From contig NZ_RKHG01000001.1 of NCBI RefSeq assembly GCF_003752415.1, positions 3,348,001 to 3,412,000 on the forward strand: 64,000 nt of DNA, given 5' to 3'. The notes under the pieces were generated by a model. That model made no database searches. It was not told where the DNA came from and was given only the letters and a program-made list of their open reading frames with translations. Shown here in pieces: positions 4,351 through 9,597 of this stretch. This stretch comes from Luteococcus japonicus (GTDB lineage Bacteria; Actinomycetota; Actinomycetes; Propionibacteriales; Propionibacteriaceae). The first letter of the stretch is position 1; each line of letters opens with the position of its first letter. The position numbers and the translations under genes are program-made.

Positions 4351-5217
4351 ATGAGCAGCGATTCCGTTCACGAAAGCCCTGAGCTGTCCGGCCCGCGCGT
4401 CCTGGTGGGCGTCGACGGGTCCGAGGATGGCCTGCGGGCCGTGCGCTACGGCGCCCGGGCCGCCCGGTTGGGCCGCGCCACCCTGCATCTGGTGCACGCC
4501 GTGGACGATGCGGTGATGGCGGGTGCCTGGGGTGTCGTCTATGACCCGAGTGCCCTGCAGGAGGCGGGGGAGCACGCCAACCAGGCCGCGCGCGCTGCGG
4601 CCCTCGAAGCGGGGCTGGACGCGCAGCAGGTGCACGACGAAGTGGTGCTGGGCAATGCCGCCGCGGTGCTGGCCCGGTTGAGCGAGGGCGCCGACCTGCT
4701 GGTCACGGGGCGTCGTTCCGTGAGCGGCCTGGAACGCATGTTCATCGGGTCGACCAGCGTCGCCCTGGCCGATGCGGCGCAGTGCCCACTGGTGGTCATC
4801 TCTGCGGCCGCGACTCCGGGAGCCACTGGCGGGCAGAACCACATTGCGGTGGGCATTGACGCGGAGAGCCACTCGCCGAACACCCTGGGGTGGGCGTTGG
4901 CCGAGGCCGAGGCCCGTGGGGCGCGGCTGACGGTGGCCCATGTCTCCCGGCAGGAGGGCCGGGCGGGACAGGTGGATGAGGTGGCGCGCCGGGCCATCGA
5001 CGAGCTCCTGGAGCCCCTGCGGGTCTCCCATCCGCTGGTGGATGTGCAGGTGCAGGTCTCGCACGGCAATCCCGTCGACGAGCTGGTGGACCTGTCCGGT
5101 CAGGTGGACCTGCTGGTCCTCGGCGTGCAGCGGCCCAAGCTGCTGGGAATCCACCTCGGAGGCGTGATGCGCGCCGTGCTGGCGCATGCCCAGAGCCCCG
5201 TGGCACTGGTGAAGTGA
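4351..5217 (+). CDS. universal stress protein with two Usp domains
   Basis: A 288-residue cytoplasmic protein built from two Usp domains. Domain 1 (about residues 14-145) opens with RVLVGVDGSEDGLRA and closes with the ATP-binding signature GRRSVSGLERMFIGSTSVALA (G-x2-G-x9-G-S/T type). Domain 2 (about 158-288) opens with HIAVGIDAESHSPN and ends LVLGVQRPKLLGIHLGGVMRAVLAHAQ, a more degenerate binding loop. The first domain is therefore the likely nucleotide binder. Tandem Usp proteins of this size are typical of actinobacteria and are induced by hypoxia or stationary phase. A good site, GAGGAGGAAG, precedes the ATG. Its stop codon lies inside the palindrome at 5215-5226. Confidence 0.92.
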   Translation: MSSDSVHESPELSGPRVLVGVDGSEDGLRAVRYGARAARLGRATLHLVHAVDDAVMAGAWGVVYDPSALQEAGEHANQAARAAALEAGLDAQQVHDEVVLGNAAAVLARLSEGADLLVTGRRSVSGLERMFIGSTSVALADAAQCPLVVISAAATPGATGGQNHIAVGIDAESHSPNTLGWALAEAEARGARLTVAHVSRQEGRAGQVDEVARRAIDELLEPLRVSHPLVDVQVQVSHGNPVDELVDLSGQVDLLVLGVQRPKLLGIHLGGVMRAVLAHAQSPVALVK

Positions 5218-5226
5218 CAATTATCA
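5215..5226. promoter_or_regulatory. imperfect palindrome TGACAATTATCA, possible operator
   Basis: TGACAATTATCA is a 12-base palindrome with one mismatched pair (positions 4 and 9). It is AT-rich in a GC-rich setting and begins with the stop codon of the universal stress gene. It could be a regulator binding site for the downstream intergenic transcript. No family is assigned. Confidence 0.25.
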
Positions 5227-5410
5227 CACGGCTGGATGTGTCCCCTGATCTCGTGACATGAGGCCTCGGCGCGGCGTGAACGAGGAATTGAAATACCTAG
5301 TCAGGGCCGCGGCCTTGTGGGTGCTCGGGGTGTTGGCTGCGCTCCCGGGCTCCAGCGCGTTCAACGTTAACTTGTCATCAGATTTGATGAACGTGAAACT
5401 GGTCATGTTC

Positions 5411-5620
5411 GAAGGGCACCCGATCGGGGGAGACGGTGCCAGTCATCCGGTTCGGGGGAACCGGTGGCGGTGGAGTGGCCGGATCGGGGGATCGACCACT
5501 CGGGTCTCATCGGGGGATGGGCCTGGGCCGCCCGCAACAATTGCACACGAGCTCGTCCTTCGGGGGAATGGCGAGTTGACGTGATGACGGGTCCGCTGGC
5601 GAGAGCCACCGGGCCCGTCA
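5411..5620 (+). ncRNA. candidate structured RNA with five GGGG-loop hairpins and a terminal long hairpin
   Basis: The octamer TCGGGGGA occurs five times (5424, 5452, 5484, 5510, 5560), each time in or near the apex of an inverted repeat. The hairpins are GGCACC..GGTGCC around copy 1; CCGGTTC-GGGG-GAACCGG; GATC-GGGG-GATC inside GAGTGG..CCACTC; CATC-GGGG-GATG extended by GGTC..GGCC; and CTCGTCCTTC-GGGG-GAATGGCGAG with a single mismatch. A 15-base-pair hairpin with a GAGA loop follows at 5586-5619. Several stems contain T opposite G, which pair as G-U only if the plus strand is the RNA; on the minus strand they would be A-C mismatches. I infer a plus-strand small RNA or long leader. The promoter, exact ends and function are unknown. 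Confidence 0.45.
5586..5619 (+). terminator. strong hairpin, likely terminator of the candidate RNA
   Basis: GACGGGTCCGCTGGC pairs with GCCACCGGGCCCGTC across a GAGA loop: 15 positions with one C-C mismatch and one G-U pair. No T tract follows, which is common for actinobacterial terminators. It separates the hairpin series from the hrpA promoter. Confidence 0.5.
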
Positions 5621-5652
5621 GTGCGTTGTGTGAATTGGCTTGCGCCCGACCG

Positions 5653-5658
5653 TAGTCT
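5653..5658 (+). promoter_or_regulatory. -10 box TAGTCT of the hrpA promoter
   Basis: TAGTCT lies 9 bases before the hrpA ATG and there is no recognisable ribosome site, so the transcript is probably leaderless or has only a couple of leader bases. Confidence 0.5.
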
Positions 5659-5667
5659 TGACGGGTC

Positions 5668-8600
5668 ATGACAGAACCTCGCCAGATGCCCGAACCCCGC
5701 CTGGAATTCGACCCGTCGCTGCCGATTGCCGAGCACGCCGACGAGATCGCCGCATTCATCCGCGAGCACCAGGTGGTTGTCGTCGCCGGCGAGACCGGAT
5801 CGGGCAAGACCACCCAGATCCCCAAGATCTGCCTGGCGCTGGGCCGCGGCCGCATCGCCCACACCCAGCCCCGTAGGATCGCTGCTCGCACGGTGGCCGA
5901 ACGGATCGCGGAGGAGTGCGACACACCGCTGGGGGATCTGGTCGGCTACCAGGTGCGCTTCACCCGCAAGGCCGGCAAGGACACCCGGGTCAAGGTGATG
6001 ACCGACGGCGTCCTGCTCGCCGAGATCACCCACGACAGGGACCTGCGGCGCTACGACACGATCATCATCGACGAGGCGCACGAACGCAGCCTGAACATTG
6101 ACTTCCTGCTCGGTTACCTCAAGCAGCTGCTGCCCAGGCGCCCGGAGCTCAGGGTCATCGTCACCTCCGCCACCATCGACACCGCTCGTTTCGCCGAGCA
6201 CTTCAGCAACACGGCGGGCGAGCCGGCCCCCGTGATCGAGGTCAGCGGCCGTACCCATCCGGTCGAGATGCGCTACCGGCCGCTGGTGGCGGACGGGGAG
6301 ACCGCCGAGGTGGCCGACCAGATCGACGGGATCTGCAAGGCCGTCACCGAACTGTCCCGCGAGGGGGCCGGGGACATCCTGGTCTTCCTGTCCGGCGAGC
6401 GGGAGATCCGCGATGCCGCCGAAGCCGTGAACGGCCTCAAGCTGTCCGACACCGAGGTCCTTCCCCTCTACGCGCGGCTCAGCGCCGCCGAGCAGCACCG
6501 TGTCTTCACCGCGCACACCGGCCGACGCGTGGTGCTGGCCACCAATGTGGCTGAGACCTCCATCACCGTGCCGGGCATCCGTTACGTGATCGATCCGGGC
6601 ATGGCCCGCATCTCTCGCTACTCGGCACGCACCAAGGTGCAGCGGCTGCCCATCGAGCCGGTCAGCCAGGCCAGCGCCAACCAGCGCTCCGGGCGTTGCG
6701 GTCGCGTCGCGCCGGGCATCGCGATCCGTCTGTACAGCGAGCAGGACTTCCTGGCCCGGCCGGAATTCACCGAGCCGGAAATCCTGCGCACCAACCTGGC
6801 CAGCGTGATCCTGCAGATGGCCGAGGCAGGGCTGGGTGACATCGGCTCCTTCCCCTTCGTCGAGGCCCCGGACCGTGGCCAGATCACCGACGGCCTGCGG
6901 CTGCTCGACGAGCTGGGTGCCCTGAAGCCAGGAAGCCATTCGCATCCGAAGCTGACCAGGGTGGGGCACCGGTTGGCCCGGATCCCGCTCGACCCACGGC
7001 TGGGCCGGATGCTGCTGGAGGCTGAACGGCAGGGCTGCGTGCGGGAGGTGCAGGTGCTGGTGGCGGGCCTGGCCATTCCCGACGTCCGCGAACGGCCTGC
7101 GGAGAAGCGGGAGCAGGCGGACCAGCTGCACCGCCGCTTCTGGACCGCGGTGATGCCGCAGCCCGAGCCCGAGCCCGAGGCATCCGAGGGGCCGAAGCGT
7201 CACACCGCCCACACTCGCGCCGCGGAACGCGTGGCCGCCAGTGGTGGCGAACCCGATTCCGGTGGCGACATCATGGCGATGCTGCGTCTGTGGGACTACC
7301 TGCGCTCCCAGAAGAAGGCCCTGTCCGGCAACGCCTTCCGACGGATGTGCCGCGACGAGTTCATCCACTTCCTGCGGGTGCGGGAATGGGAGGACCTGCA
7401 CACCCAGCTGCGCGACATCTCCAAGGAGATCGGGCTGGAGCGCAACAGTGCGCCGGCCCCCGCGGACAAGGTGCTCACCGCCGTCCTGGCAGGCCTGCTG
7501 GGGCACGTCGGGTTGGCCGACCTGCGGGAGCAGGACCAGCCGAAGAAGGACCGCAATGGCAAGCGTCGGCGTCCCGGTCCCAGGGAGTACCTGGGGGCCA
7601 GGGGGGCACGCTTCGCGATCCAGCCCGGTTCGGCGCTGGCCAAGAACCCGCCGCCGCTGGTGATGGCCGTCGAACTGGTGGAGACCAGCCGGCTCTGGGC
7701 CCGCACGGTGGCCGCCATCACCGCCGAACAGGTGGAGGAGGTGGCTGGTGACCTGCTCAAGCGCAGCTATTCGGAGCCGCACTGGTCCACGAACTCCGGT
7801 TCGGTGGTGGCCTACGAGAAGGTCACCCTCTACGGGGTGCCGGTCATCGCAGAACGTCCGGTCAGCTATGCCCGGATCGACCCTGTCGTCGCGCGTGAGA
7901 TCTTCATCCGTTCCGCGCTGGTTGAGGGGCAGTGGCGTACCCGGCATCACTTCTTCCACCACAACCGCAAGGTCCGCGAGCAGGCCGAGGAACTGGAGGA
8001 GCGCAGCCGCCGCCGGGACATCACCGTCGACGACCAGCAGATCTTCGACTTCTACGACGCCCGGATCCCCGCCGAGGTGGTCAGCGTCCAGCACCTCGAC
8101 GCATGGCTGCGTCGGCTCCCGGACAAGCGGCTGCTCGAGATGGGCATGGATGACCTGCTGGCCCCCGAGGCCGACCAGGTGGACGCCGGAGACTTCCCGG
8201 ACCACTGGGTGGTGCCCGCCAGGGATGGTGGCGAACTGCGTTTCGACATCGACTACGTCTTCGACCCGGGCAGCGGCCACGACGGTGTCACCGTGGCGAT
8301 CCCGCTGGCACAGCTCAACCAGATCAGCGCCGAGCCCTTCAGCTGGCAGGTGCCGGGCCTGCGGCACGAACTGGCCACCGAGCTCATCCGGGCCCTGCCC
8401 AAGAGCGTGCGGACCAGCTTCGTGCCCGCTCCCAACCATGCGCGCGCGGCATTGGACTGGCTCGACGAGATGGCCAAGGTCGGTCAGGGGCCGGACCACT
8501 CCACGCGCTTCTGCGACGAACTGGGACGGGCACTGCGCCAGCTGACCTCGGTGACGGTGGAGCCGCAGCAATGGAGTCCCGATGCCGTTCCCGACCACCT

Positions 8601-9597
8601 CCGGATCGCCTTCCGGATCACAGAGAATGGCCGCGAGACCCGCCGCAGCAAGGACTTCGCGGACCTGCGGCAGGACCTGGCCCGCAAGGTCAGCCAGACG
8701 CTGACCCGGGCCAGCGCCAAGAAGGCCGTCACCGGCGCCACCAGCTGGACGATGGGCCCCATCGACCGCACCCTGCAGGTGGAGAAGAGTGGCACGAAGG
8801 CCATCGGCTATCCCGCGTTGAAGGACGAGGGATCCAGCGTCGGCGTCGTCGTGCTGGACACCGCCGAGCGTGCCAGCCAGTCCCATGCGAAGGGTCTTCG
8901 GCGGCTGTTGGTGCTCACCCTGCCGGATCCGACGAAGTGGGTGGTCAGCCACCTGTCCAACCCGGACAAGTTGGCCCTGGGCAATTCCCCGTACGCGTCG
9001 GTGCCGTCCCTGCTAACCGATGCCCGGCTCAAGACCGCCGAGCAACTGGCCAGGCGCTGGGCGCAGGAGAACAAGCTCGGCCTCGATGATGTGCGCGACG
9101 CCCAGACCTACGAGCGTCTGGCCCTGTTCGTGCGCCAGGAACAGGCCGACGCGATGCGCGCGGTCGTCGCGACCGCGGCCGAGGCCCTGCGCAATGCCAC
9201 GGCAGCCCGGTTGGCCATCGGTTCCCATCCGGCGGGCGAGGTGCGCGAGGACGTGACGGCCCAGCTCGACAACCTCGTCTTCACCAACTTCATCAGCGCT
9301 ACGCCGGACCCGTGGTACGGGCACCTGCCGCGCTATGTGAAGGGGATCACGTTGCGCCTGGCTGGCGCCGCCTCCAGCCCGTCACGGGACAGGCAGGGGG
9401 CACTGCTCGTCGACGAGCTGGAGGCCGAGTATGCCCGGCTGTGCGATGCCCAGCCGCCCGGCCCGCTGCCCGCCGCGGTCGAGGAGATTGGCTTCCTGAT
9501 CGAGGAACTGCGGGTGCAGCAGTTCGCCCAGCAGCTGCGCACCGCCGTCACCGTCTCACCCAAGCGGATCCGAAAGGCGATGGCGGAGGCCCACTGA
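5668..9597 (+). CDS. hrpA: ATP-dependent RNA helicase HrpA (DEAH box)
   Basis: A 1309-residue protein of the expected HrpA length. The Walker A motif GETGSGKT is at residues 41-48, the DEAH box at about 135-138 in TIIIDEAHER, and SATI near 167. The second RecA domain has LVFLSGEREIRDA and NVAETSITVPGIRYVID, and motif VI is QRSGRCGRVAPG. A helicase-associated domain follows, then the long C-terminal DUF3418-type region that distinguishes HrpA from short DEAH helicases. HrpA proteins act on mRNA and ribosomes in the cytoplasm, including rescue of stalled or collided ribosomes in E. coli. It is transcribed on its own. The gene immediately upstream is the candidate hairpin RNA. Confidence 0.96.
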   Translation: MTEPRQMPEPRLEFDPSLPIAEHADEIAAFIREHQVVVVAGETGSGKTTQIPKICLALGRGRIAHTQPRRIAARTVAERIAEECDTPLGDLVGYQVRFTRKAGKDTRVKVMTDGVLLAEITHDRDLRRYDTIIIDEAHERSLNIDFLLGYLKQLLPRRPELRVIVTSATIDTARFAEHFSNTAGEPAPVIEVSGRTHPVEMRYRPLVADGETAEVADQIDGICKAVTELSREGAGDILVFLSGEREIRDAAEAVNGLKLSDTEVLPLYARLSAAEQHRVFTAHTGRRVVLATNVAETSITVPGIRYVIDPGMARISRYSARTKVQRLPIEPVSQASANQRSGRCGRVAPGIAIRLYSEQDFLARPEFTEPEILRTNLASVILQMAEAGLGDIGSFPFVEAPDRGQITDGLRLLDELGALKPGSHSHPKLTRVGHRLARIPLDPRLGRMLLEAERQGCVREVQVLVAGLAIPDVRERPAEKREQADQLHRRFWTAVMPQPEPEPEASEGPKRHTAHTRAAERVAASGGEPDSGGDIMAMLRLWDYLRSQKKALSGNAFRRMCRDEFIHFLRVREWEDLHTQLRDISKEIGLERNSAPAPADKVLTAVLAGLLGHVGLADLREQDQPKKDRNGKRRRPGPREYLGARGARFAIQPGSALAKNPPPLVMAVELVETSRLWARTVAAITAEQVEEVAGDLLKRSYSEPHWSTNSGSVVAYEKVTLYGVPVIAERPVSYARIDPVVAREIFIRSALVEGQWRTRHHFFHHNRKVREQAEELEERSRRRDITVDDQQIFDFYDARIPAEVVSVQHLDAWLRRLPDKRLLEMGMDDLLAPEADQVDAGDFPDHWVVPARDGGELRFDIDYVFDPGSGHDGVTVAIPLAQLNQISAEPFSWQVPGLRHELATELIRALPKSVRTSFVPAPNHARAALDWLDEMAKVGQGPDHSTRFCDELGRALRQLTSVTVEPQQWSPDAVPDHLRIAFRITENGRETRRSKDFADLRQDLARKVSQTLTRASAKKAVTGATSWTMGPIDRTLQVEKSGTKAIGYPALKDEGSSVGVVVLDTAERASQSHAKGLRRLLVLTLPDPTKWVVSHLSNPDKLALGNSPYASVPSLLTDARLKTAEQLARRWAQENKLGLDDVRDAQTYERLALFVRQEQADAMRAVVATAAEALRNATAARLAIGSHPAGEVREDVTAQLDNLVFTNFISATPDPWYGHLPRYVKGITLRLAGAASSPSRDRQGALLVDELEAEYARLCDAQPPGPLPAAVEEIGFLIEELRVQQFAQQLRTAVTVSPKRIRKAMAEAH

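Follow-up and report, generated by a model that had tools for sequence, protein, structure and literature searches.

The window analysed here, a stretch of 64,000 nucleotides (positions 3348001-3412000 of a 3.45 Mb one-contig genome, G000:C1), contains a region between two genes in which one short G-rich word recurs at the tips of successive predicted hairpins. This locus, array A, raises the question of whether it encodes a small RNA of its own and what such an RNA would do, or whether the hairpins belong to the leader of the next gene, act at the level of DNA or have come together by chance. Judged from its sequence, A is probably a member of a family of stand-alone plus-strand small RNAs that has five loci in this genome and is unmatched in Rfam.

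A cluster of five hairpins ahead of hrpA

Copies of TCGGGGGA begin at 5424, 5452, 5484, 5510 and 5560, all on the plus strand and with a first-to-last span of 144 bases. The total for the window, seven copies on both strands, is ordinary (shuffle mean 4.97; at least seven in 23 of 100 shuffles). It is the clustering that is unusual: by a second-order Markov estimate, 1.35 copies are expected per strand and, given one copy, the probability of another four within 145 bases is about 4e-12. In the predicted fold of 5395-5640, GGGG is unpaired in all five plus-strand hairpins, namely A1 (5415-5440, tip UCGGGGGA at 5424-5431), A2 (5442-5468, tip 5452-5459), A3 (5473-5501, tip 5484-5491), A4 (5501-5525, tip 5510-5517) and A5 (5550-5577, tip 5560-5567). 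A3 is seen as a local hairpin, with an outer stem that has a longer-range fold as competitor and has its greater strength on the minus strand. The array is closed by a terminal hairpin of 15 bp (5585-5620, plus strand), which is terminator-like and lacks a clear T run.

The predicted small RNA would start past a proposed -10 hexamer and end with the terminal hairpin (5401-5621, plus strand, about 215-221 nt, with a presumed 5' end). Upstream lies a gene for a universal stress protein with two Usp stretches (4351-5217, plus strand), and downstream, outside the RNA, a gene for a HrpA-type ATP-dependent helicase (5668-9597, plus strand; DEAD, Helicase_C, HA2_C, OB_NTP_bind and DUF3418). The first-pass annotation had described five hairpin-apex copies, a 15-bp terminal hairpin and a helicase gene after the array, and in all three respects it was borne out. 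A coding repeat was rejected at A because none of the tip spacings (28, 32, 26 and 50) is a multiple of three and the 108-aa frame across the array is without a Pfam match.

Four further arrays in the genome

When the own genome was searched for two tips 10-70 bases apart, four unlinked arrays were found besides A, and the reversed pattern gave no matches. These are B (1675444-1675615, plus strand, six tips), C (2420365-2420503, minus strand, five tips), D (1348777-1348833, minus strand, two tips) and E (1244604-1244674, minus strand, two tips). Another two-copy place, L152 (C1:2057535), was read and, being a likely short repeat, dropped. The A-E collection holds 20 tips, of which 18 consist of the same eight letters, UCGGGGGA, and the other two, B2 and C2, have six and seven G in a row; this sameness is partly by construction, since the tips were collected by searching for that word and two variants. 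In the typical family hairpin, as read from the folds, a small internal loop separates the outer stem from an inner NUC/GAN stem, on which the GGGG sits.

A covariance model built from 18 of the hairpins (R1) recovered 19 of the 20 family hairpins among its 42 matches in the own genome, 18 of these 19 being the hairpins that built it. The other 23 matches are all single by eye, and of nine that were read, L221 and L226 are in leaders and the remaining seven inside long open frames. A mobile element was rejected as an explanation of the arrays, as the arms are unrelated between copies, plasmids are without a match to A and phages without a match to B. The terminal hairpin of B has one 48-base match, to a Nonomuraea record in the plasmid collection. 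Beside B, a thiolase-like gene (L160 1743-2600, minus strand) reads in two frames by eye and may be a pseudogene or reflect a sequence error.

Pairing is kept while the stems vary

The 18 hairpins used for the pairing tests were picked by their tip and not by their pairing, with B2 and C2 left out. With the arms in register, 123 of 180 positions were paired, against 74.4 +/- 6.6 in shuffled arms (0 of 20,000 shuffles reached this value); with Watson-Crick pairs only the figures were 108 and 56.9, and the pair adjoining the tip is present in 16 of the 18. B-E alone, which were not the source of the idea, gave 90 of 130 against 52.3 +/- 5.8 (0 of 20,000), and the result held when L152 was added (125 of 200 against 80.0, 0 of 20,000). 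Average identity between hairpins is only 0.31 and 0.28 for the arms, so kinship does not account for the pairing. The early observation that the stems vary with pairing kept is thus supported across the paralogs, the signal in A alone being modest (33 of 50 against 25.0 +/- 3.6; 505 of 20,000 shuffles).

The covariation evidence comes from paralogs within one genome. In a structure count that omits two internal-loop columns per side, chosen after the alignment was seen, 76.7% of cells were paired against 53.2% in shuffles (0 of 500), and 49 cells were changed on both sides against 23.7 (0 of 500). The covariation score was 0.548 against 0.174 +/- 0.037 (0 of 500), and the best slid control reached 0.241. 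Two other measures were not above shuffles: pairs with change on both sides numbered 8 against 7.7 (344 of 500), and further pair types 24 against 21.9 (131 of 500). If the reading is true, the arrays would be a clear case of unrelated stems covarying within one genome.

Strand, upstream motif and accessibility of the tips

The plus-strand fold of 5395-5640 is more stable than expected (z = -3.6), with no equally stable fold in 200 shuffles. The fold of the minus strand of A likewise exceeds chance in stability (z = -3.9, 0 of 200), so the strand is not given by folding alone. Nor is it given by G-U pairs, which had at first been read as confined to the plus strand: this was wrong in detail, as the G-U pair of hairpin A3 (5473-5501) exists on the minus strand only, and the best folds of the 20 family hairpins contain 14 G-U pairs on the plus and 13 on the minus strand. 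In the fold of the whole RNA, A3 is only half formed, with a probability of 0.46 for its closing pair and of 0.67 for an unpaired tip. Across the predicted whole RNAs, the mean unpaired probability is at least 0.67 for 17 of 20 tips; the exceptions are B4 and C3, which are mostly paired, and E1, which is poorly formed.

A promoter-like motif, TTAACTTGTCATCA, lies upstream of A at 5367-5380 on the plus strand. It includes a proposed -35 hexamer TTGTCA (5372-5377), and a proposed -10 hexamer GAAACT (5395-5400, plus strand) follows 19 bases after the 9-mer TTAACTTGT, by eye as in B, D and E. At zero or one mismatch, TTAACTTGTNTTCA has four matches in the genome, and these are A, B, D and E only, where it is located 56-62 bases ahead of the first tip; all six matches at two mismatches are without an array. 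Aligned by eye, TTGTNT and GAnnnT hexamers occur at constant spacing in the same four loci. The shared motif is absent from C, and a sigma-70 consensus scan of A, B and C gave no promoter. An inverted repeat TCATCA/TGATGA (window positions 5375-5390) overlaps the proposed -35 hexamer and spacer of A and by eye is not present in B, D or E; it is possibly an operator.

Terminal hairpins following the G strand of A, B, C and E have energies of -29.8 to -41.5 kcal/mol, against -12.9 to -20.0 kcal/mol for the best on the opposite strand, and D terminates in its own long second hairpin. A terminator consensus scan of A, B and C scored at B only, with none at A or C. The upstream motif, the one-sided terminal hairpins and a more stable plus-strand fold in 17 of the 20 family hairpins agree in pointing to the plus, G-rich strand as probably the right one. 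A structured plus-strand small RNA with a repeated tip and varied stems, as first proposed, is thereby supported at the level of prediction, and more strongly than could be known earlier because of the four paralogous loci and the promoter-like motif common to four of the five.

Occurrence in relatives

The DNA of A matched one of 57 genomes, its own, and hrpA is present in 37 of 37. Of these 37 loci, 30 were covered, namely the own, that of the same-genus genome G001 and those of 28 other relatives. In about 730 bases upstream of hrpA, no array of the exact tip (four to six G) was found in the 29 relatives' loci; arrays with other tips would escape such a reading. One relative's locus (L195) has a single tip copy before hrpA. 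In G001 the usp-hrpA neighbourhood is kept and the array is absent by eye, and this assembly, which is 79% complete, contains no three-tip cluster. The expectation that the stems would be kept in close relatives thus failed at A.

A three-copy pattern was met in 14 of 198 family genomes and in 13 of 394 class genomes, the own genome included in both cases, as well as in at least 117 stretches of genome contigs and 55 viral stretches. In all loci together 197 clusters were scored, and the best 40 of the 197 by lowest unit identity (0.38-0.69) were examined. In three of the own arrays, unit identity is low (0.43-0.50) and pairing high (0.66-0.75). Eleven places outside were read, of which L126, L009, L010 and L319 are array-like leads and L357, L340 and L257 were rejected as repetitive or coding in look. 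The best outside lead is L126 from Schumannella (Microbacteriaceae), with four tips, a paired fraction of 0.75 and a unit identity of 0.60. L009 (G142, 0.53) comes next, and L010 (G145, 0.43) and L319 (G434, 0.43) are weaker; in these three the paired fraction is not above that of other clusters. The four UCGGGGGA hairpins of L126 lie at 7625-7732 (Schumannella sp. 10F1B-5-1), and in the last of them, as in D, the tip forms the loop of a 12-bp stem. In L319, from another actinomycete family, three tips stand on the minus strand from 1500, shortly before a small frame that by eye looks WXG100-like.

In a stricter scan of 51 loci for at least three stable GGGG hairpins within 230 bases, for which D and E have too few tips to qualify, only A, B, C, L126 and L009 were kept. 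Applied to the 198 family genomes, R1 matched 164 of them at E up to 0.3, and by eye there was no cluster outside the own genome among the matches listed. Matches in so many genomes suggest that the E-values of R1 are too optimistic here. Perhaps the family is young, or the tip may differ between lineages; what was searched for was the exact tip or a model derived from it.

A putative family of decoy RNAs

What would five such loci do? We see the chances as evenly balanced that A-E are five small-RNA genes of one family acting as multivalent decoys for one partner. Each locus would give a non-coding RNA of about 110-250 nt from its G-rich strand, carrying the tip, nearly always UCGGGGGA, two to six times on hairpins whose outer stems vary freely and are often set off from the tip by a small internal loop. 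Because a promoter-like element is common to them, A, B, D and E would probably be made under the same condition. Titration would be the likeliest role: several like sites per RNA would soak up one partner that reads UC-GGGG-GA, which would lift or impose control on the targets of that partner. The partner would be somewhat likelier a protein than a C-rich RNA, the latter being a serious rival; a protein is slightly favoured because the loop has only four bases and the stem is kept but free in sequence.

Alternatively, the RNAs could work by loop pairing, with the UCGGGGGA tips binding C-rich stretches of mRNAs or sponging a small RNA with C-rich loops, a mirror image of 6C RNA. The near-uniform eight letters of the A-E tips, partly a product of the way in which they were collected, would suit such pairing, but four-base loops beneath a closing stem are short for antisense, and a weak search of the own genome (150 of 1634 candidates scored; one of 14 controls positive, and that below the cut-off) gave no 6C RNA. 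This reading is possible, if on the unlikely side.

That A is a leader or attenuator of hrpA, and each array one of its next gene, appears improbable. The start of hrpA 47 bases past the terminal hairpin and a same-direction GNAT gene downstream of C would fit a leader. However, B lies between a thioesterase gene and opposite-strand reading frames that run towards it, D by eye runs towards an opposite-strand gene, and the 29 relatives' loci have no array before hrpA. A DNA-level element, with palindromic binding sites or cruciforms, is very unlikely: the pairing arms would make DNA palindromes too, both strands fold and G-U counts are about equal between strands, but terminal hairpins and upstream motif are one-sided, the motif keeps a near-fixed distance, and the varied arms surround a tip that is not palindromic. 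That the copies cluster by chance, or reflect low complexity in a GC-rich genome, can practically be set aside, for although single TCGGGGGA copies are common and many clusters of at least three were scored, the low unit identity and high pairing of three own arrays, the shuffle tests and the coincidence with a promoter motif all speak against it.

If the arrays act as decoys, single tips elsewhere in the genome could mark the targets of their partner. The word WTCGGGGGAW occurs 42 times in the own genome, 14 times within A-E; the other 28 occurrences were classed, and 12 of them plus L226 were read. A few single tips stand just ahead of start codons, and these are a lead only, since GGGGGA also resembles a Shine-Dalgarno site. 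At L278 (G000:C1:1594160-1594169, minus strand), TTCGGGGGAA ends eight bases upstream of what appears to be the ATG of a YceI-like gene (PF04264), its GGGGGA sitting at the Shine-Dalgarno position, and this gene is a candidate target. Two further genes, named here from reading their translation, have a single UCGGGGGA hairpin in their leader: one is small membrane-protein-like (L226, G000:C1:2260778-2260805, minus strand) and the other sugar-nucleotidyltransferase-like (L267, G000:C1:331565-331574, minus strand). One TTCGGGGGAT precedes a cobB-like gene at L289 (G000:C1:2317475-2317484, minus strand), within what by eye seems a cobalamin riboswitch, and is probably unrelated to the arrays.

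Extended further, the decoy reading would make the arrays part of a Csr-like global system in Actinomycetes, in which an RNA-binding protein reads UC-GGGG-GA hairpins, is held in check by five co-induced decoys and has single-tip mRNA leaders as targets (yceI-like, rfbF-like and small membrane-protein-like candidates). We regard this extension as doubtful. Should the decoy reading be true, a clade where CsrA was not found here would have a decoy system of multi-hairpin RNAs and, with it, a new recognition element. The same clade is also not known to have Hfq or ProQ. The tip would be a ready bait for the partner, and five loci, four of them with one promoter-like motif, would provide a handle on the signal.

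Comparison with known RNA families

The covariance search called for in the first-pass annotation was run and left A and B-E unmatched. In the window, Rfam 15 gave a single match at the gathering cut-off, a tRNA, and at 5200-5800 RF01066 was without a match at E up to 5. At the B-E loci the sole matches were two tRNAs near D, and RF01066 had no match at E up to 1. The L126 locus gave one match, to ASpks and below the cut-off. A shallow literature search found no report on this motif in bacteria, and UCGGGGGA was not linked to a bacterial RNA by title.

LhrC and the streptococcal csRNAs are multi-copy small RNAs that repeat a short, C-rich anti-Shine-Dalgarno motif. A-E are likewise multi-copy with one motif, which is G-rich whereas theirs is C-rich. 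ANTAR-target RNAs are protein-recognised hairpin pairs in Actinobacteria whose six-base loops have A1 and G4; the hairpins of A-E are likewise actinobacterial and are set apart, by description, by their different loops. The 6C RNA (RF01066) is also an actinobacterial small RNA with homopolymer loops, and by sequence the arrays are its mirror image. It is described as having two hairpins with C runs in the loops on the transcribed strand (PMC4046766), whereas the arrays have G loops, up to six hairpins and five loci. Membership was rejected, as RF01066 has no match at A or B-E and the loops are GGGG on the strand with the terminal hairpins.

CsrA recognises a site with the consensus RUACARGGAUGU, mostly in a six-base loop (PMC7652899), and this differs from the UC-GGGG-GA tip of A-E with its four-base loop, a tip word that is set by construction. 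A search of the own genome for CsrA (PF02599), positive in three of 14 controls (E. coli, B. subtilis and T. maritima), did not find it. Membership in CsrB/RsmZ was rejected on these two grounds, and the same two restrict "CsrB-like" to a way of working. Thus, the CsrB-like logic suggested at first stands for the design, which a repeated tip on varied stems fits, and not for CsrA or its site. CsrB/CsrC and RsmX/Y/Z carry several like motifs at hairpin tips and have sibling copies per genome, as described (PMC7652899, PMC4211561). A-E also repeat one tip motif on several hairpins in sibling loci, a feature found in all five arrays, with non-coding character established for A alone.
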